A DNA stretch of 38,063 bases. Source: a virus. The notes beneath the pieces are model-generated. The model searched no databases. It saw only the letters and a program-made list of their open reading frames with translations, and had not been told where the DNA came from. The translations under genes were made by a program, and so were the position numbers. The stretch is from positions 1 to 38,063 of the IMG/VR virus record IMGVR_UViG_3300028569_000082. One strand, given 5' to 3'. This document shows positions 11,600-33,783 of this stretch, piece by piece. Position 1 is the stretch's first letter. Each line of letters opens with the position of its first letter.

Positions 11600-11985
11600 G
11601 GTTTAGTGAACATAGCCGTATAAGGATGAGCACCGTAATTAGATAACGGGCCTTGATACGGCCATTTAGCACAGTTAGTAATATGCTTTTGCCATTGTTC
11701 CCAAGGCGTTTTAAATTTTGGTTCTTGAAAGTCAAGCCAAAAATAACAGCGGTGTGTTTTAAGTTCGTTGTTCAATAGTGCAACTTTTGCATAGTATCGC
11801 GATTCTGATTCTATTACTGAGTATTTACGGGATGTATGCCAAAATTTAAAACGCTTATTTTTGCGGTAAAACTTACGCGTTAACGGAAACAGATTGAACG
11901 AATTGTTTAATATTAAACCTAATTCAATGTTATCTGGTTGGCCGCTTAAAATTAGTTTGCGCACCCATTTAGATTCCGTTTGCAT
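11596..11985 (-). CDS. Unknown protein encoded downstream of the sigma factor
   Basis: A 129-residue basic protein, rich in aromatic residues (FKFWHTSRKYSV, CYFWLDFQEPKF, KWPYQGPLSNYG). I do not recognise a family. It starts inside the 3' end of the sigma-factor gene (17-bp overlap) and must be co-transcribed with it. Its stop overlaps the phosphoesterase stop by 4 bp from the other strand. A partner or regulator of the sigma factor is one possibility, suggested by context only. Confidence 0.65.
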   Translation of the reverse strand: MQTESKWVRKLILSGQPDNIELGLILNNSFNLFPLTRKFYRKNKRFKFWHTSRKYSVIESESRYYAKVALLNNELKTHRCYFWLDFQEPKFKTPWEQWQKHITNCAKWPYQGPLSNYGAHPYTAMFTKP

Positions 11986-12736
11986 ACTTACTTCTAATTT
12001 TGTGAAACGCTTTTTTTTCTATTTGCCTAACACGTTCGCGGCAAATATTCATTTTTTCTGCTACTTTTGTTAAATCTTGCGGGAACGTATCAAAGTATCT
12101 AAGCTGCAAAATCTTATACTCACGTTCCGTTAAACATTCCTTAAATTCATTATAAAGTTCTTGCATTTCAATTTCTAAAACGTGCTTATCTGTTTGGTCA
12201 TCTGATGCAACTTGATACATTATGTCACCATCAAAATTAGTATCGTCTAAGCTAACAAATCCTTTAATGCTTTGCGCGGACCTAATAATGTTTTCTGGTA
12301 TGTTTAGTTTTTCGGCCAACAGTTGGCTATCGGTTTCTTCATACTTGCCTAATTGATATTTAACCTGACTTATCTTATGCGGTAACCTTACACAGTTTTT
12401 ATTAAGACCAATAAAATCTCTGATATAGCGCTGTATTTGAAACAACGCGTAACTAATAAACTTTACTTCAAACGATGGGTTAAAACTATCGGCCGCTTTG
12501 ATTAAGCCAAACATGGCTTCAGAAACTAAATCCATTATATCGCATTGCGAGTTATCGTACCTAAAAGCAACCGATGCAGCAAACAACATATTGTGTTTTA
12601 TTAACGTATCGCGATTTGCAATTTGTTCTTCTGCACGCGTTAATGGTTTATATCTTTGCGCTTCAGTTAGAAATTGTTGGAGTATACCTTTTTTGTTTCG
12701 GTGGTTATTTCCTTTAATATCTATGTGCCTAATCAT
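11969..12736 (-). CDS. Phage-encoded sigma-70 family RNA polymerase sigma factor
   Basis: The 255-residue protein contains sigma region 2 (~residues 40-112, including MDLVSEAMFGLIKAADSF and KFISYALFQIQRYIRDFI, i.e. 2.2-2.4), region 3 (~117-165) and region 4 (~200-250, with LTEREYKILQLRYF and the canonical 4.2 helix CRERVRQIEKKAFHKIR). It lacks the extended region 1 of housekeeping sigma factors but keeps region 3, which distinguishes it from ECF factors. It should direct host RNA polymerase to chosen promoters. It reads away from the tail operon across a shared promoter region; a TATCTTTG element lies 42 bp upstream of its start. Late-gene activation is the obvious hypothesis. Confidence 0.92.
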   Translation of the reverse strand: MIRHIDIKGNNHRNKKGILQQFLTEAQRYKPLTRAEEQIANRDTLIKHNMLFAASVAFRYDNSQCDIMDLVSEAMFGLIKAADSFNPSFEVKFISYALFQIQRYIRDFIGLNKNCVRLPHKISQVKYQLGKYEETDSQLLAEKLNIPENIIRSAQSIKGFVSLDDTNFDGDIMYQVASDDQTDKHVLEIEMQELYNEFKECLTEREYKILQLRYFDTFPQDLTKVAEKMNICRERVRQIEKKAFHKIRSKYANGI

Positions 12737-12878: not shown

Positions 12879-13439
12879 ATGATTTTTAGAAAAAGAAACA
12901 GGGCAGAACAAAACGAAAGTAATTACCAGAAGTGGCTTAAAACCTACATTCCCGAAACTACAAAGCAGCGCATAGAATTGACTAGAGTATTTACAGACCG
13001 CGCTGGTAATAACTTTTACATTTTGAAAAACCCGGCAAACCTGACGCGTGAACGTGCGCAAAGAATTGAGGAAGCGATGACTGCCATAGATTTTGGCATT
13101 AACAAAACCGAAGTAGTTGAAAAGCTAAGTTCGATGTTAGAAACGGTTGAAGATATGCCATGGCAAAACATGACGCGCGACAAGCTAAAAGAATTTCATA
13201 CTAAGTCTAAGGACCAACTAAACGATATTCTTTATAGGCTTAAACACGTAAAGATAGATGACTTATTATTAGAAGCTGGTTTGTATTTCTTTTACATCGA
13301 TGGTGAAAACCCATACATTATAAATAGCGAAACGCAACAGCGAAAAATGGATGCGATTAAAAACGATGATGAACTGCGCGCTTTTTTTTTGAACAGTATA
13401 GAACAAATTTTGAAAGGTTCGAGCGCTTTAAAAAATTAA
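12879..13439 (+). CDS. Tail assembly chaperone-like protein (short form)
   Basis: This 186-residue charged, mainly helical protein starts MIFRKRNRAEQNESNYQKWL and is the first gene of the tail operon. I do not recognise the sequence itself, but its position directly before the tape measure, together with an overlapping downstream frame without its own start, is the classic arrangement of the gpG/gpGT tail assembly chaperones. These bind the tape measure protein and recruit tail tube subunits. The short form would end at TAA 13437-13439; a -1 shift near its 3' end would give the long form of 271 residues described in the next entry. Confidence 0.75.
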   Translation: MIFRKRNRAEQNESNYQKWLKTYIPETTKQRIELTRVFTDRAGNNFYILKNPANLTRERAQRIEEAMTAIDFGINKTEVVEKLSSMLETVEDMPWQNMTRDKLKEFHTKSKDQLNDILYRLKHVKIDDLLLEAGLYFFYIDGENPYIINSETQQRKMDAIKNDDELRAFFLNSIEQILKGSSALKN

Positions 13440-13693
13440 ATTATCCAAGGCTAAACAAAATTGAACCGAACGTAAAACCTAAAAGAAAACCGCAAACATA
13501 TCAACACGCACTGCAAAAACTAAAAGAACAAAACCGCGAAAATGATTATATAATAACTAAGGGCGACCCTGTACAAATGGCAAATGTTAGATTTTGGGTT
13601 ATACGCGATTATTATTCAGCATTAGAACAAATACTAAAAGATAACGATAGAGCCGAACAAGCTAATAAAAAAATAAACAATGGCAGAAATTAA
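13382..13693 (+). CDS. Frameshifted extension of tail assembly chaperone (gpGT-like, -1 frame)
   Basis: In the -1 frame relative to the preceding gene, an open stretch begins at 13373, directly after stops at 13367 and 13370, and runs to TAA at 13691-13693, overlapping the tape measure start. It encodes ~100 residues (for example KLNYPRLNKIEP, QTYQHALQKLKEQ, ANVRFWVIRDYYSALEQIL) and has no start codon near its beginning; the first in-frame ATG is at 13577. Two slippery heptamers in the right phase lie in the allowed window: T-TTT-TTT at 13382-13388 (within a T9 run) and T-TTA-AAA at 13427-13433. A -1 shift at either gives a 271-residue fusion. Seen: frames and heptamers. Known: this arrangement in long-tailed phages. 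Inferred: the shift itself. Confidence 0.75.
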   Translation, partial: FFFEQYRTNFERFERFKKLNYPRLNKIEPNVKPKRKPQTYQHALQKLKEQNRENDYIITKGDPVQMANVRFWVIRDYYSALEQILKDNDRAEQANKKINNGRN

Positions 13694-16517
13694 AGACGTT
13701 TATAGTTTAGAATTTAACGGTTCACAGTTTCAAACTGAAATCAATTCAGCAATACAAAGTATTGACGAACTAAACAACGCCATGGCTGAAGGCGTTGATG
13801 TTGCAGATGAATTAGAATCAGCACAGGCGAATTTAGTTAGCGTGTTAGGAACCGAGGCTAATGGAGTGGAACAGTTAAATCAGAAACGTGATACTTTAGT
13901 TAAAACACAAAAAGCCGTTAACGCTGAATCAAAAGCTGGTGTAGCTGTTGGTAAGCAGTTGGATGCTACAAATAAACAGATAGCAGTTAGTACAGGTCAG
14001 GCGGCAACACAGCAACGCGGGTTTGCGGGTTCGTTACTGCAAGGCGCGCGTAATATAAATGGTTTACGCCGCGCTGGCATGATGTTGGGCAATGTATTTA
14101 GATTGTTAGGCGGTTTAAATCCGTTTGGTTTATTGCTTACTGCATTACCTACAGTTATTAGTTATATTTTTGGTGCAACAACTGCGCAAAAAGCATTCAA
14201 TGAAGCGGCTGAATCTGCTGTTCAAGGTTATGCAAAAGAAAAAGTAGCATTAGATGAATTGTTTGGTTCGCTCAATGATGCAAACATTAAAGGTGAAGAA
14301 CGTAGCGCAATTATTAAACAAGTAAATGACCAGTACGGTGATTATTTGCCGAACTTATTAACTGAAGCAAATACAGCTGAAGAAATTGCAGCGGCTTATG
14401 ATTTAATCAATAACGCATTGATAAGAAAATCTGTAACCCAAGCTAAAACAAACGCATTAGAAGCGGTTACAGGTAAATTATTACAAGATAGGATAGCAGG
14501 TTTAGAAAGGCAAAAAAAGGCACAAAAAGATTTAGACGATGCAGATGTAGCTATACTTATGAGAAATAAAGATGGTGAAGAAGAGTTTTCAAGACCAACA
14601 AACGATGACCAAGCACGCGCAATAAGTAATTTTAAAGCAGCAAAAAAGAATTTACAAAATATTGATAAAGCTTACAAAGAAGAAGTTAAAAAAATAAACG
14701 AATCAGCAAAAGACCTTGAAAAATCATTAGGTTTAACTCAAGTACCAACAACACCAAAAACACCGAGAACACCAAAAACACCGAGAACAATAACCCAAGC
14801 AAACAGAAATGCTACCGATGAAAAAGCAAAACTATTGCAAGATGAACTAACCAACCTTGAAAATGCTTTAAAAATTGAAATCGGTTTGACTGAAGAAGGT
14901 ACTGAAGCGCGCGTAAGGGCCGAATTAAAATATATTGATGTTATCGAAGGATTTAGAATACAGAATCAAAAAGGTTTTGGCGATAGTGAAGCTGAAATTA
15001 CTTTAATGATTCAAGACAATATATTAAAACGCAAAAAAATAAACTTAGACTATTTTAATTCATTAGAGGAAAAAGAAAAAGAACGTATTGAGAAAATCAA
15101 AACACAAATTGATGAAACTGAAGCGCTTTTAAATTTACAAATTCAAGATACGCAAGAAAGCAGCCAAGAACGTATTGATGCAGAAATGCAATACTACGAT
15201 GTGCTAAAAGATTTATATACAAGGTATGCTACAGAATTAGGTATGAACGAAAAGCAAATAGATACATTTGTAAAACAAGGATTAAAAAAACGTTTCGGTT
15301 TATATGAAAACTTTTATAGTGCGCAGTCAACTAATCAGCAAAATAATATACAAACTCAACTAAACAACCAGCTAACGGAATTAGAGCAAGAACGTAACGC
15401 ATTATTGCAAGCGGCTACAGGTAATGCTAAAGAACAAGAAAAGATTAACAAAATATATGATAAGCGCCGTTTAGAACTTGAAAAAGATACTAATAAAAAA
15501 ATATTAAACGCACAAATAACGCTTTTAAATCAGTTAAGAGCATTGGCAGTTTCAACTGGTGATACTAATTTATTATCTGACTTTGATAAGCAAATATCTG
15601 AATTAGAAACTAAATTAGTTGAGTTAGGCAAACTTACTGAAGATGGCATTGAACCGCCCGATCCTAAAAACCTTATTGAACAAATAGGCCAAGTTATTAC
15701 AGGTGTTTCAGATTCTATTTTTTCGGTTCTTAACGCACAGGTACAAGCCTATATTAGCGGACTTGATAAAGCCATTGACAAAAGCAAATCAGCGTTGGAT
15801 GAAATACGTAGCAATAGCGAAGACTTTAACGCGCGCCAATTAGAAATTGAAAAGGAACGTTTAGAAAAATTAGAAGCTGAACGAGCTCGGGCTGTTGAAC
15901 GTGAAAAGAATTTAGCGCAAATTCAAATAGCAATTAACGCTGCAATTGCAGTATCAAAGGCGGTGGCTGAAGGTGGTGGATTTGCATCCGCTATAACTGT
16001 TGCATTAACTATAGCTTCACTTATTGCTGGTTTAGCCCAAGCGCGTGCCGTTTCAAGTAGCGCGTTTTTTCATGGTGTTGAATATCTTGAACGCGGCAAT
16101 AATAAAGCGGGCCGCGATACAATACCTGCAATGCTTAACGAGGGCGAACGCGTAATTACAACCGATACAAACGATAAGTATTGGGATGTGCTAACTGCCG
16201 TACATAATAACAGAATCCCAGCGGATATACTTAATACATTTTCTAAAGCATATCAGCAAGGCGGTATTAAAAACGCTTTAGGTGCGTTCGGTAATAATGT
16301 TTCATTAAGTGGAGAGTTAGGCCAAAAATCTATATTTGTAAACGTGGCCCAAACATACGGCGGACTTGAAAACAGATTGGAACGTATCGAAAATGTTTTA
16401 ACGGAACTGCCTAAGTACATGCCAAAAACTACAGTTAGTGCGAATGCCAACGGTATATTTAAGATTGTAGAACAAAGACAGGCGCGTAAAAACTTTTCAC
16501 GTAATTGGTCAAAATGA
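13680..16517 (+). CDS. Tail tape measure protein
   Basis: At 945 residues this is the longest product of the window. It is largely helical coiled-coil (repeated Lys/Glu/Gln heptad-like stretches at ~20-110, ~290-350, ~400-680 and ~700-745), with hydrophobic segments at ~140-170 (LLGGLNPFGLLLTALPTVIS) and ~755-790 (small residues, Ala-rich). This is the usual make-up of tape measure proteins, which set tail length and help DNA pass into the cell. A small Thr/Pro linker made of 18-bp repeats lies at ~residues 358-370. The C-terminal ~120 residues are globular, with AMLNEGERVITTD. It begins inside the -1 frame of the chaperone gene, as expected for this module. Confidence 0.9.
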   Translation: MAEIKDVYSLEFNGSQFQTEINSAIQSIDELNNAMAEGVDVADELESAQANLVSVLGTEANGVEQLNQKRDTLVKTQKAVNAESKAGVAVGKQLDATNKQIAVSTGQAATQQRGFAGSLLQGARNINGLRRAGMMLGNVFRLLGGLNPFGLLLTALPTVISYIFGATTAQKAFNEAAESAVQGYAKEKVALDELFGSLNDANIKGEERSAIIKQVNDQYGDYLPNLLTEANTAEEIAAAYDLINNALIRKSVTQAKTNALEAVTGKLLQDRIAGLERQKKAQKDLDDADVAILMRNKDGEEEFSRPTNDDQARAISNFKAAKKNLQNIDKAYKEEVKKINESAKDLEKSLGLTQVPTTPKTPRTPKTPRTITQANRNATDEKAKLLQDELTNLENALKIEIGLTEEGTEARVRAELKYIDVIEGFRIQNQKGFGDSEAEITLMIQDNILKRKKINLDYFNSLEEKEKERIEKIKTQIDETEALLNLQIQDTQESSQERIDAEMQYYDVLKDLYTRYATELGMNEKQIDTFVKQGLKKRFGLYENFYSAQSTNQQNNIQTQLNNQLTELEQERNALLQAATGNAKEQEKINKIYDKRRLELEKDTNKKILNAQITLLNQLRALAVSTGDTNLLSDFDKQISELETKLVELGKLTEDGIEPPDPKNLIEQIGQVITGVSDSIFSVLNAQVQAYISGLDKAIDKSKSALDEIRSNSEDFNARQLEIEKERLEKLEAERARAVEREKNLAQIQIAINAAIAVSKAVAEGGGFASAITVALTIASLIAGLAQARAVSSSAFFHGVEYLERGNNKAGRDTIPAMLNEGERVITTDTNDKYWDVLTAVHNNRIPADILNTFSKAYQQGGIKNALGAFGNNVSLSGELGQKSIFVNVAQTYGGLENRLERIENVLTELPKYMPKTTVSANANGIFKIVEQRQARKNFSRNWSK
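14751..14786 (+). repeat. Two perfect 18-bp tandem units in tape measure gene
   Basis: ACACCAAAAACACCGAGA occurs twice in tandem, encoding a (T-P-K/R) linker TPKTPRTPKTPRT between coiled-coil segments. It is a likely site of length change by slippage. Confidence 0.95.
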
Positions 16518-22398: not shown

Positions 22399-23274
22399 AT
22401 GAATATTTCTTTTATCAATGGGTTTTTGGGCGCGTTTGGCGTTTGCCCGCCTTGCATAGACGAGGATAATTCCCCTAACTATCTTTGTGACCCTTGCGAT
22501 TCAACCGTTTATTCTGGTGGTATTGCTGGTTGGTTTGCAAAAAAATGTAATTACGAATTTGACGATATTACAGATTCTACTGAATGGGAAACTGCAATAG
22601 CAAACAAAGACGTATTCGGTCGCGTAAATGGTAGCCGTATTAGTGGTGGTTTGCCGGCGCCTGAATTTACTACTAAAAAACGCGGTAGCTGCGGACAAGA
22701 GGAGGTAGTAAAACAGTCGCGTGTTGTTTCTCTTACCGATGCTGAAAACGATCTTACATTTACTATTGATGCACTTTATAACTTCCTTTCTAACCCTTCT
22801 AAAGCTGCTGGTTATGAATTTGGTTTTGTAACTTGCGATGGCCGTTTTTTAGGTTGGTATTCAAATGTAACTGTTCGCCCCTTTTATCAGATTGCAGAAA
22901 CTGATGAAGATGATGCGTTTTGGACACTTGAATTCAGATACAACGAACAGTTAGGTACATTTAGCCAATTGTCTTTAGACTTCTTGTTAACATTGCCTTA
23001 CAACGTTTGTTGGGTTACTTCAATTGTTGTTACAGGTTTTGCGGGTGCTACTACTGTTGCAGATGGTGCTACGTTGCAAATGCTTGCAACTATCTTGCCA
23101 TTGAACGCTACTGATTCTACTGTTACATGGTCTGTTGTTAACGGTTCGGGAACTGCAACTATTAGCGTAGGCGGTTTGCTTACTGCTACGAACGCTGGTA
23201 CTGTTACTGTAATTGCTACGGCTAATGACGCTTCAGGTGTTACTGGTTCACTTGTTATTACTGTTACTCCTTAG
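22399..23274 (+). CDS. Probable major tail tube protein with C-terminal BIG2 (Ig-like) domain
   Basis: A 291-residue protein. Residues 1-40 are Cys-rich (CPPC at ~16-19, CDPC at ~30-33). Residues ~70-205 form a beta-rich core with an acidic loop (AETDEDDAFWTLEFRY) like tail tube proteins. Residues ~208-291 are a bacterial Ig-like group 2 domain (VADGATLQMLATILPLNATD, VTWSVVNGS, GLLTATNAGTVTVIATA). Codon use (many GCT, GTT and ACT) resembles the capsid gene and differs from neighbours, suggesting high expression and so a major virion component. Ig-like tails on tube or capsid proteins are common phage decorations thought to hold weakly to cell or mucus glycans. A stem-loop follows the gene. 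Confidence 0.68.
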   Translation: MNISFINGFLGAFGVCPPCIDEDNSPNYLCDPCDSTVYSGGIAGWFAKKCNYEFDDITDSTEWETAIANKDVFGRVNGSRISGGLPAPEFTTKKRGSCGQEEVVKQSRVVSLTDAENDLTFTIDALYNFLSNPSKAAGYEFGFVTCDGRFLGWYSNVTVRPFYQIAETDEDDAFWTLEFRYNEQLGTFSQLSLDFLLTLPYNVCWVTSIVVTGFAGATTVADGATLQMLATILPLNATDSTVTWSVVNGSGTATISVGGLLTATNAGTVTVIATANDASGVTGSLVITVTP

Positions 23275-23331: not shown

Positions 23332-25068
23332 ATGAACTTAGAACAGTTTTATCAGTTTTTAGATTCTGTAAATGCTACGATACTAAATCCACCCGTTCAC
23401 CCATTTAGGGCAGATTGGAAACGTATTTATGAAAGTATCAAACCTCACTTTTATGGTGAAGTGCCGCCCGCGTTAGATAAGGCATTCCCAAATGAGGATG
23501 AACAGATATTAGCATACAGAAAAAATACGTATCAGCCAAAAACAGAATCGCCATTGGTTAAGGCAATAACTGAATTGAATAGACTACTAAGTTCTGCTAA
23601 ACACTCAGTACGTTTTGAAAATACAGATATGAAAGAATTTGCCGAAAATGCAAAGTTTGGCGATTATAATTTACAAAATTATATATTTTCTGTATTTATT
23701 CCGAACCGCGTATTGGACCCTAACGCCGTTCTTTTGATTCAGCCCGAAGGCGAAGGGATTGAAACAGATAACGTACGCGTTAAAATTAACATGAAAGTAA
23801 TTCAGTCTGATAGGATTGTTTTTAATGATCCCGAATACAGACTACTAATATATAAAGGTATAAGCAAAAATAAATATGCTACCTTAGGTATTGAAAACCC
23901 TTTGTATTATCACATCGTAACTGATATGTTTTACGCACAGGCTCGCGCGTATGGTGATAAAACAATGTTTGAGGTTATCTATGAACACAATAGCGGTATT
24001 ATGCCTTGTGTTACCTTAGGTGGTCGCGTTGTTCCTAAATATGATTCTTATGGCAATACGTTTAAAATTTACAAGTCTGATTTTAGCCCTGCAATACCTT
24101 ATCTTAACGATGCTGCTATATTTGATAATCAGCATAAATCGGTTATGCTTGCGACATGCTTTCCTATTAAATTTGTTGAAGGCGTTGACTGTAACAGTTG
24201 TAATGGTGTCGGCCGCGTTCCTGACCCTAATGATTATGACACCAGCATAACTTGTAAAACTTGTTTAGGGCATGGCAAAACATTAAGCATAACGCCGCTT
24301 GCAGCATATAACCTAAACCCAACTACTTCTAAGTTTGGCGATAATGATAAACAACAAGTTGAACCGATTAGATATTATAGCCCCGATGTAAGTACTATTC
24401 AAGAAACTAACAAGGTAGCAATATATTCATTGGATAAGGCCGAACAAGTGTTAAACATAAACCGTTCTTTAAAGTCGGCACAAAGCGGTGTTGCTAAAGA
24501 AATGGACCGCGAACCCGAATATATTGAAGTAGGTAAAATTAGCGATGATGTTTATGCGCGTTATAAGGATGTGTTAAAAATTATTCAGGCTATTGTGTTT
24601 ATGGATACTGAAAGCCCGATAATGGTAAATGCGCCGATTTCGTTTGACCTAAAAACAGAAACGGAACTAATGGCCGAATTTGCATTATCACAAAAAGGCT
24701 TACCAACTGCCATCCGTTACGAATCTTATATTAGTTATGTTGACCGCCGATATAATGCCGATGCTGTTGCACGCCAAATAGCAACCATTTGCGCCATGTA
24801 TAATAGCGCTTATCTTTATACAGTTGAAGAACGCGTACAGCTTTTAGCAAGCGGCCAAATAACTGAAAAGGATGCAATTAGCGCTCAGTTCGTTTTTGAT
24901 GCTGTTACCGAACTTTACTATGATGAAGGCTTTGATATTATGGGTAGCGATTACACTACTATTAAGAATGCTATTGATGCTAAGTTAGCGCCAAGGTTTG
25001 ATGCGGTTGCAAGTGTTCAAGTACCAGAAATAGATATGAATCAGTTTAATAATACTGAAGAAGAATAA
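23332..25068 (+). CDS. Portal protein with DnaJ-like zinc-finger insert
   Basis: The 578-residue protein is at portal size and position, directly before a MuF-like minor head gene. NRSLKSAQSGVAKEMDREPEY resembles the stem/helix region of portals and is followed by a long helix and a C-terminal wing. The portal is the dodecameric ring through which DNA is packaged. At ~residues 285-316 it carries two CxxCxGxG motifs (CNSCNGVG and CKTCLGHG), the zinc-binding repeat known from DnaJ; this is unusual for a portal. The stop overlaps the next ATG by one base (TAATG). Family call rests on context plus this motif, not on a database match. Confidence 0.75.
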   Translation: MNLEQFYQFLDSVNATILNPPVHPFRADWKRIYESIKPHFYGEVPPALDKAFPNEDEQILAYRKNTYQPKTESPLVKAITELNRLLSSAKHSVRFENTDMKEFAENAKFGDYNLQNYIFSVFIPNRVLDPNAVLLIQPEGEGIETDNVRVKINMKVIQSDRIVFNDPEYRLLIYKGISKNKYATLGIENPLYYHIVTDMFYAQARAYGDKTMFEVIYEHNSGIMPCVTLGGRVVPKYDSYGNTFKIYKSDFSPAIPYLNDAAIFDNQHKSVMLATCFPIKFVEGVDCNSCNGVGRVPDPNDYDTSITCKTCLGHGKTLSITPLAAYNLNPTTSKFGDNDKQQVEPIRYYSPDVSTIQETNKVAIYSLDKAEQVLNINRSLKSAQSGVAKEMDREPEYIEVGKISDDVYARYKDVLKIIQAIVFMDTESPIMVNAPISFDLKTETELMAEFALSQKGLPTAIRYESYISYVDRRYNADAVARQIATICAMYNSAYLYTVEERVQLLASGQITEKDAISAQFVFDAVTELYYDEGFDIMGSDYTTIKNAIDAKLAPRFDAVASVQVPEIDMNQFNNTEEE

Positions 25069-31274: not shown

Positions 31275-31841
31275 ATGACTATAAACGAACGCTTAGAAAT
31301 ACTATCACAAGTTGTAAATGATGACAACACGGCCCGTAGAATTTCGCAGGCTGCCGCGTTTCAAGTTATAGCTGAGTATAAGCAAAGAATATTTTTTTTA
31401 GGCTTAGATAGTTCGGGTAGTCAAATAGGAACTTATAGTGTCAACCCGTTTTATATAAACCCGCTTTCGCTTACAACTGTTTCTGCAGGCGGCATAAAAC
31501 CCAAAGGTAAAAATGGCAATACTGTTTTTAAAAATGGCAATCCGCATAAGACAAAGTATTTGACACAAGGTTATAAAGAACTAAGAGATTTAACAGGTAG
31601 GCAATCGGGCAAGGTAGATTTGAATTTTAGCGGTTCATTATTTCAGAGTATCAAAGTAACTGAAAACGGATTAAATAGCGCAATTACTTATACGAATGAT
31701 GAAATGGCAGCAATAATGGAATTTAATGAAGAACGTTTTTTAAAAGAAATAGCAGCCGTATCAGATACAGAACGAGAATTAGGTGAAATAGCGGGCCGAA
31801 ATGAACTATTAGCAATTTTAGAAGAAATAGATTTACTATAA
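31275..31841 (+). CDS. gp10-like neck/tail-completion protein
   Basis: A 188-residue protein with the look of HK97 gp10/virion morphogenesis proteins: a KTKYLTQGYKELRDLTGR stretch, LNFSGSLFQSIKVTENGLNS (a typical strand-turn-strand), and a C-terminal Glu-rich helix. It lies between the connector-like and tail terminator-like genes, as expected for a neck or tail-completion factor. The stop overlaps the next ATG by one base (TAATG). Confidence 0.6.
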   Translation: MTINERLEILSQVVNDDNTARRISQAAAFQVIAEYKQRIFFLGLDSSGSQIGTYSVNPFYINPLSLTTVSAGGIKPKGKNGNTVFKNGNPHKTKYLTQGYKELRDLTGRQSGKVDLNFSGSLFQSIKVTENGLNSAITYTNDEMAAIMEFNEERFLKEIAAVSDTERELGEIAGRNELLAILEEIDLL

Positions 31842-32719
31842 TGTACGTAACACAAAACATAATAACCGAACTAATCAAACAGATTGATACTGCAATGGCA
31901 GCCGTAAATGTAAACGTTTACGGTAATGGCATAGCGGTAAAAGATACTGCAGGGCAGGTTGTTACTTTGAATGTTACGCAAAACGGCACACGAAACTATG
32001 TTGGCATCTCAGACACCGCGCGAACGGGCTATTATATCCGTGTTAATGGTATTGTTTCGGAAACAAGAAAAGCCGCGAATACTAAGCGCGGAAGTTGTGG
32101 TATCGAATTGGATGTGCGTGTTCCACTTAAATTAGTTTTTTGGCATCTTTGCGCTGACCCTCGTATGCTTTTAGATAGCGTTAAATTTGCGCTGTATGGT
32201 GCTAACTTTAAAGGTGTTCAATGGCAATACGCAATAGTAAACCCGCGTTTGTTCCCTGTTAGTAATGAAGTATTACCGTGGACCGTTTACGCTGCTGAAA
32301 CAGGCAAAGACCCGAAAACGCTATTAAGCCTTATGCAAATAGTTAGTTTAGATTTTGAATTACGATATGATTTTAGCCTTACTGAAAAATGTAAGCCGTT
32401 TTCGATATGTGAAGTTAATAAGCCAACACCTCTACCTATTACAGGATTTAAACCAGTTAACACAATAGCGCCTAAAATAAATGGCAACGATATTGTAAAT
32501 GCTAAAATAGATGTTACTGACAATGGAACTTGGACTGGAGATTTGCCAATTACTTACACTTATCAATGGCAAAGAAACGGAATTGACATTATAGGTCAAA
32601 CAAATAGTCAATATTTAACAGTATTAGAAGATTTAGGGAAAAAAATAACATGCGTTGTAACAGCTACTAACATAGCAGGTTCAACAAGCGCATTAAGTAA
32701 TAGTATTTTAATTTTATAA
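31841..32719 (+). CDS. Tail terminator-like protein with C-terminal Ig-like domain
   Basis: Residues ~1-195 form an alpha/beta unit of the size and position of tail terminator (gpU-like) proteins (ITELIKQIDTAMAAVNVNVY, WHLCADPRMLLDSVKFALYG). Residues ~200-292 are an Ig-like domain with TYQWQRNGIDIIGQ, the Tyr-x-Trp core, and KKITCVVTATNIAGST. The segment 32400-32719 coding for it looks more AT-rich and independent of the first part, as though added. Ig-like additions on virion proteins are common. The product ends just before the terminator at 32765. Confidence 0.6.
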   Translation: MYVTQNIITELIKQIDTAMAAVNVNVYGNGIAVKDTAGQVVTLNVTQNGTRNYVGISDTARTGYYIRVNGIVSETRKAANTKRGSCGIELDVRVPLKLVFWHLCADPRMLLDSVKFALYGANFKGVQWQYAIVNPRLFPVSNEVLPWTVYAAETGKDPKTLLSLMQIVSLDFELRYDFSLTEKCKPFSICEVNKPTPLPITGFKPVNTIAPKINGNDIVNAKIDVTDNGTWTGDLPITYTYQWQRNGIDIIGQTNSQYLTVLEDLGKKITCVVTATNIAGSTSALSNSILIL

Positions 32720-32815: not shown

Positions 32816-33139
32816 ATGCCTTGTTGTAATTGTTGTGAAAATACCTTAAATTTGGGCTGTCTTAATGCTTGCAATGCTGTTTATAATACGGGCATTATTG
32901 TAGATGCACTAACTGCAGGCGTTTGGGTTTTAGAATTAACTTTTGGTTCAGTAAGTATTTATTATAGTGTTGATGTTGAAGATGGCGAAACGGTAATATT
33001 TACACTTACAAACCTTAATGAAAGTTACACATATCAAGGACAAATAATTGACCCTAACGGAGAAATAGTTACACTTGAAGTTAACGGCATTGAATATGAT
33101 TGTATTGAATTTAGCACTAAAATAATAACAAATTTATGA
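32816..33139 (+). CDS. Small cysteine-rich beta protein
   Basis: A 107-residue protein that opens MPCCNCCENTLNLGCLNACNA, with six Cys in the first 20 residues, followed by a beta-sandwich-like remainder (WVLELTFGSVSIYYSVDVED). The Cys cluster may bind metal or form disulfides. It is the first gene after the terminator and overlaps the next gene by 4 bp (ATGA). It heads the fibre-type gene block; a small virion surface or fibre-base protein is likely, but unproven. Confidence 0.65.
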   Translation: MPCCNCCENTLNLGCLNACNAVYNTGIIVDALTAGVWVLELTFGSVSIYYSVDVEDGETVIFTLTNLNESYTYQGQIIDPNGEIVTLEVNGIEYDCIEFSTKIITNL

Positions 33140-33783
33140 TTGATATTGTAAAACTCGCAAATGGCAATGTAGCCATCTATGATTCGACTTCGGGCGATTT
33201 CATTAACAGCCTTAGCCCAGATATAGTAGAAATAGAATGTAACACAAACGGCACTGTTAAGGTTATTCAAGACAATGGTAACGTAGAATATTTTGACCCG
33301 ACAATGGTTGCAAATACTCAAGTCTTACCAGCGGCACCAATAGCGTTTTCGGGTTCTTGCGGTGATCTTGCTTTGCTCTTAAGTACTGATTTTTTTTTTG
33401 TAGTTAGTGGCGGTGGTCCAACTGTAATACCAATCGAAATACAGTTAGCTGCAAGTGATGAAACAACAGCACTAACAACAGGAACGGCAAAGATTACATT
33501 TAGGCTACCAGTTGCTTTTACGCTTACTGGCGTTCGTGCTTCGCTTACAACTGCTCAGGCTTCGGGTTCAATCTTTACAGTTGACATAAATCAAAGCGGT
33601 TCATCTGTATTAGGTACTAAGCTGACCATTGACAATACAGAAAAAACAAGCGTAACGGCTGCAACGCCTGCAACAATTACGACAAGTGCGCTAACAGATG
33701 ATGCTGAAATAAAAGTTGACATTGACCAAATTGGGAACGGTACTGCAACAGGTTTAAAAATAACTTTAATCGGTATAAGATGA
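33136..33783 (+). CDS. Fibre/receptor-binding-type protein with poly-T tract
   Basis: A 215-residue protein. The C-terminal ~110 residues (TGTAKITFRLPVAFTLTGVR, GSSVLGTKLTIDNTEKTS, DAEIKVDIDQIGNGTATGLK) match a beta domain widespread at the ends of phage tail fibres and spike-like proteins. The N-terminal ~85 residues are a small beta part. A run of ten T at 33390-33399 encodes DFFF at the boundary. It overlaps both neighbours by 4 bp. It likely contributes to host contact; whether it is the main receptor-binding protein is unknown. Confidence 0.7.
   Translation: MIDIVKLANGNVAIYDSTSGDFINSLSPDIVEIECNTNGTVKVIQDNGNVEYFDPTMVANTQVLPAAPIAFSGSCGDLALLLSTDFFFVVSGGGPTVIPIEIQLAASDETTALTTGTAKITFRLPVAFTLTGVRASLTTAQASGSIFTVDINQSGSSVLGTKLTIDNTEKTSVTAATPATITTSALTDDAEIKVDIDQIGNGTATGLKITLIGIR

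Follow-up and report, generated by a model that had tools for sequence, protein, structure and literature searches.

The window, that is the whole stretch of 38,063 bases analysed here, is the record of a virus, a freshwater phage, with a G+C content of 35.6%; no tRNA genes were found anywhere in it. Directly upstream of a probable tape measure gene are two overlapping open reading frames, the second in the −1 frame relative to the first. The features of this region, and of a fibre-like gene elsewhere in the window, are as follows.

12879–13439, plus strand: frame-0 ORF of 186 aa, probably the short, gpG-like product of a tail assembly chaperone gene; about 75 IMG/VR loci conserve it, and it lies directly upstream of the tape-measure candidate
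13373–13693, plus strand: −1 frame extension (gpT-like), which would be read from about 13388 onwards to form the C-terminal portion of a 271-aa fusion; it has no usable start codon ahead of 13577
13382–13390, plus strand: run of nine T residues (T9), the putative slip site, with T-TTT-TTT and T-TTT-TTG in phase; invariant among relatives
13391–13436, plus strand: dual-coding overlap 3′ of the slip site, in which silent changes are reduced
13427–13433, plus strand: second heptamer, TTTAAAA, rejected as slip site; only 25 of 62 distinct relatives have a slippery sequence here
13680–16517, plus strand: probable tape measure protein of 945 aa (PHROG tail tape measure, E=8.5e-4), downstream of the fusion frame in relatives
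33136–33783, plus strand: fibre-like gene of 215 aa containing a T10 run, with a constant N-domain and a variable C-domain
33390–33399, plus strand: the T10 run, a second homopolymer and probable slip site, at residues 85–88 of the 215-aa ORF; invariant, with stops in both other frames

The −1 frame opens at 13373, after TGA codons at 13367 and 13370, and ends with the TAA at 13691–13693, overlapping the ATG of the tape-measure candidate at 13680. On recomputation all of these positions agreed with those of the first-pass annotation, which had been made from the letters of the DNA. Two of its other claims were also reproduced, namely that the frame lacks a start, ATG, GTG and TTG all being absent before 13577, and that there are two phase-correct slippery heptamers, one within T9 at 13382 and one at 13427, with a slip at either giving a computed fusion of 271 aa. 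The in-phase heptamers are T-TTT-TTT (13382), T-TTT-TTG (13385), T-TTA-AAA (13427) and A-AAA-AAT (13430). The 186-aa and 271-aa products would have their first 170 residues in common.

The locus had initially been described as having no recognisable sequence relatives. This is true of cultured phages, where tblastn found no match for the frame-0 protein, the tape measure or the ORF at 23332–25068 and only the terminase was matched, distantly; nor was a relative found in the bacterial genomes searched. A protein scan of IMG/VR, however, gave 75 loci from uncultured viruses, to which alignment scans added L076, L077, L134 and some fragments. Because the peptides used as queries were back-translated degenerately, genes with TTC codons would not have been missed. 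Across the roughly 75 relatives the frame-0 protein is 54–98% identical to that of the window, with a range of 54–96% in a diverse set, and its tail beyond T9 is itself conserved. Every relative of sufficient length carries the −1 extension, in the same relation to frame 0; its protein identity to that of the window is 40–94% in the diverse set. Alignment with related phages, which had been suggested as a check on the frame, therefore comes out in its favour.

For analysis of the T9 run, the part of 62 distinct genes that precedes the run was used to build a tree, on which changes were counted by parsimony. T9 is identical in all 62, with no change at any of the nine bases against a mean of 7.3 at upstream third codon positions. 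The Ala/Ser codon at 13380 is GCT, AGT or TCT, and its last base (13382) is invariably T; 26 conserved codons of the four-fold type elsewhere in the frame-0 gene have undergone 3–17 changes each. In 13391–13427 the mean number of frame-0 third-position changes is 2.4, compared with 7.3 upstream, as expected from dual coding. With its protein conserved in a fixed relation to frame 0, and silent variation collapsing exactly from T9 through the overlap, the −1 frame is confirmed, as far as comparison of sequences can do so, to exceed what chance would produce.

Conservation also distinguishes between the two heptamers. Both T-TTT-TTT and T-TTT-TTG are invariant in the 62 distinct genes, so for T9 the heptamer conservation that the first-pass annotation had proposed as a check is borne out. 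Its picture of two competing sites has to be abandoned, since T9 alone is conserved; at 13427 a slippery heptamer occurs in 25 of the 62, and the rest have TTCAAAC, TACAAAA, TATAAAA or other sequences. This pattern shows T9, and nowhere else, to be the place at which the frame switch would be made, and the 271-aa fusion is very probably produced there. The length of the run is equally fixed. When IMG/VR was scanned with GC-T8-N{0,2}-GAACAGTAT, permitting T8, T9 and T10, all 63 contigs had exactly T9, with no T8 or T10, these counts, like those for T10 below, coming from related loci and hence not being independent events. The site is an in-phase conserved X-XXY-YYZ heptamer of the kind sought in −1 ribosomal frameshifting, and also a length-conserved A/T homopolymer of about nine or more at the frame transition, as sought in transcriptional slippage.

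The T10 run lies in the ORF at 33136–33783. Its relatives keep an N-domain of about 88 residues but differ in the C-terminal part, their total length ranging from 138 to 578 aa, and some of the C-terminal matches to cultured phages lie in genes annotated as tail fiber or virion structural protein. No silent change was seen at T10 in 42 distinct genes, whose N-domains go down to 33% identity, against a mean of 6.9 at conserved upstream codons. A scan permitting T9, T10 or T11 ahead of GTAGTTAG gave exactly T10 in 67 of 67 contigs. In all 48 loci each of the other two frames meets a stop no more than two codons beyond the run, whereas the background frequency of such codon positions in these genes is 4.0%; the stops are reached by way of varied sequences (GTAGTTAG, GAATTAAG, GAGTTAAG, GATGTAGC and AAGTTAAG). 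Stops in both frames would suit insertions and deletions in either direction, as made by polymerases and not by −1 ribosomal slippage. Gain or loss of one U through slippage would cut the fibre-like protein short just past the N-domain, at about 88–90 aa. From its conservation, T10 at 33390–33399 is a probable second slippage site. A comparison of contig names identified 14 contigs carrying both the T9 and T10 sites. At L152:1618–2031 there is a second gene copy in which the N-domain has T9 (DFFL) in place of T10, with nearby stops in both other frames.

We propose that RNA polymerase would slip on the dA:rU hybrid over T9, producing a fraction of transcripts with U10. Translated normally, these would read GCU-UUU-UUU-UUU-GAA and enter the −1 frame; transcripts with U8 would terminate immediately at UGA (UUU-UGA). 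Ribosomes may additionally slip on the same U run. The outcome would be a short gpG-like chaperone and a rarer, extended gpGT-like form, and tail assembly would require the two at a fixed ratio. We consider it reasonably likely that this transcriptional slippage is the main cause of the frame switch, favouring it because of the lack of RNA structure, the depletion of A/T runs and the T10 site in the fibre-like gene.

Folding of the single sequence 3′ of T9 gave a z-score of 0.13, which is nothing unusual, sliding-window folding over the gene showed nothing consistent, and the consensus fold after T9 was −0.19 kcal/mol with no compensatory pairs, all three calculations being pseudoknot-free. 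A search of Rfam gave no match, and no Shine–Dalgarno-like stretch is visible by inspection upstream of the run. Stimulators of either kind are common but not obligatory in −1 ribosomal frameshifting; the lack of RNA structure is compatible with ribosomal slippage as well and does not exclude it. Slippage-prone genomes have been recognised by signatures such as the avoidance of long A/T runs (Baranov et al, 2005, PMC1088944). The 174 non-redundant genes taken from these phages contain two A/T runs of at least nine in coding sequence against 10.9 expected, and none of 100 synonymous codon shuffles gave a count as low; the avoidance is mostly of A runs, and T10 is one of the two long runs that escape it. 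The RNA polymerase of E. coli, which may differ from the enzyme of the phage host, slips at runs of at least seven T and is biased to poly(T) over poly(A) (PMC6260861). A phage-encoded sigma-70-like factor (Pfam Sigma70_r2 and r4) is found at 11969–12736 on the minus strand, divergent from the chaperone gene, and might drive late transcription through T9.

The same 271-aa fusion would result from a −1 programmed ribosomal frameshift at T-TTT-TTT (13382–13388), as in lambda gpG/gpGT, with tRNA-Phe in the P and A sites slipping back by one base. That this is the cause is possible, if somewhat unlikely. The heptamer is in phase and shows no variation, even at T13382, a silent position that would otherwise be free to change, and the conservation of T9 beyond the heptamer is accounted for by dual coding, since T-TTT-TTT and dual coding alone would preserve the whole run. 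Ribosomal frameshifting is moreover the rule in tail chaperones, being widely conserved and found in all well-studied ones of like arrangement (PMC5009743). The depletion of A9/T9 could also stem from replication slippage, and comes mainly from A runs; for T runs alone of at least nine, 1 was seen and 2.0 were expected, which is not significant. A ribosomal frameshift would, however, have to operate with neither a conserved downstream structure nor a Shine–Dalgarno-like stretch upstream, and it leaves the companion T10, with its stops in both other frames, unexplained. Polymerase slippage fits the invariant T9 without stimulatory structure, together with the invariant T10, at least as well as a ribosomal frameshift, and the two may act together at T9.

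It is very improbable that there is no fusion and that the downstream frame is either non-coding or a separate gene with an internal start at ATG 13577. Most close relatives do have an ATG near codon 66–68 of the downstream frame, but the 60-odd codons ahead of ATG 13577 (FFFEQYRTN...) are among the most conserved of the −1 frame, which contradicts a start there; the methionine is absent at this position in L070, and nearly all relatives lack a start near the beginning of the frame. Although homopolymers are prone to error during sequencing and replication, a sequencing or assembly error (the true genome having T10 and one continuous gene) or a run that is phase-variable in the DNA is the least likely case of all, since the constant T9 of the 63 contigs disposes of sequencing error and DNA-level phase variation, and the conserved frame-0 tail past T9 and the suppressed silent changes in the overlap also argue against them.

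From its position by the tape measure and its two-product design, the 186/271-aa pair is most likely a tail assembly chaperone with gpG-like and gpGT-like forms. A gpG/gpGT-style layout had been recognised from the outset, and it stands: the two overlapping ORFs lie directly upstream of the probable tape measure gene, and the second is start-less, in the −1 frame and conserved as a protein. The tape-measure call is weak, the PHROG tail tape measure profile being the only relevant family match of the 945-aa ORF (E=8.5e-4). In L062 the terminase and the tape measure flank the candidate chaperone gene directly, and in L054 there is one small ORF between it and the terminase. Sequence searches of Pfam, PHROG and PDB gave no match to a known tail chaperone family. 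The Pfam family PF23992 (Pam3_gp32-like) weakly matches the −1 extension in 9 of 13 members, with a best E of 1.5e-4, the extension of the window scoring 20.3 bits against a curated Pfam cut-off of 27. Both structure models are poor and the fold search gave nothing significant. The BFVD matches at ranks 1, 3 and 26 bear the label tail assembly chaperone, at E 0.095 or worse; given the poor model (pLDDT 61), they are no more than suggestive.

The frameshifts of lambda gpG/gpGT and other tail chaperones are described by Xu et al, 2004, as cited in PMC3711429, and reviewed in PMC5009743. As in lambda, the overlapping ORFs adjoin the tape measure, and the second is start-less, in the −1 frame and joined near the end of the first. 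Here, however, the site is a T9 homopolymer and not a mixed heptamer, no stimulatory structure was found, no named chaperone family is matched in sequence, the upstream gene is not the major tail protein, and the slip is possibly made by RNA polymerase. In Shigella mxiE and spa13, where transcriptional slippage has been shown experimentally (PMC5009743), slippage likewise adds a C-terminal stretch, read in another frame, to a fraction of the product. In spa13 this stretch overlaps the length-control gene spa32, a position comparable with that of the fusion frame here, which overlaps or adjoins the tape measure. The Shigella genes, though, are bacterial type III secretion genes. The established transcriptional slippage of Thermus thermophilus dnaX occurs at A9 (PMC1088944, PMC5009743), also a nine-base run, and the T10 site shares with it the stops close by in both non-zero frames, leading to truncation. 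Unlike the phage sites the dnaX run is of A and lies in a cellular gene, and the T9 chaperone site would give an extension and not a truncation. An Acinetobacter prophage topoisomerase and tape measure protein, apparently made by transcriptional slippage, are mentioned in passing in PMC6095929.

In its two-product output the locus follows the known gpG/gpGT arrangement; what is unusual is the route through a homopolymer and the companion site in the fibre-like gene. In the literature searched on chaperones or fibres with transcriptional slippage, we found no report of such an arrangement, neither of transcript-level frame switching in a tail chaperone nor of a dnaX-like slip site in a fibre gene. 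The chances are about even that, in one group of uncultured freshwater phages, RNA-polymerase slippage on invariant T runs serves as a general means of setting the stoichiometry of tail parts, T9 extending a share of the chaperone and T10 truncating a share of the fibre protein. Frame switching in the chaperone is a textbook case of ribosomal frameshifting. If polymerase slippage yields the same two products, selection would be for the ratio of the two proteins and not for a particular decoding route, as is known for dnaX, and the pairing of T9 and T10 suggests a common, easily testable device in a large group of uncultured phages. Both genes are easily mis-called in annotation, where the start-less ORF may be lost or the homopolymer mistaken for an error. 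Elsewhere in the window, there is a T8 run at 31392–31399 in the ORF at 31275–31841, and the ORFs at 22399–23274 and 31841–32719 each have matches to Ig-like domains from major tail or virion structural proteins.
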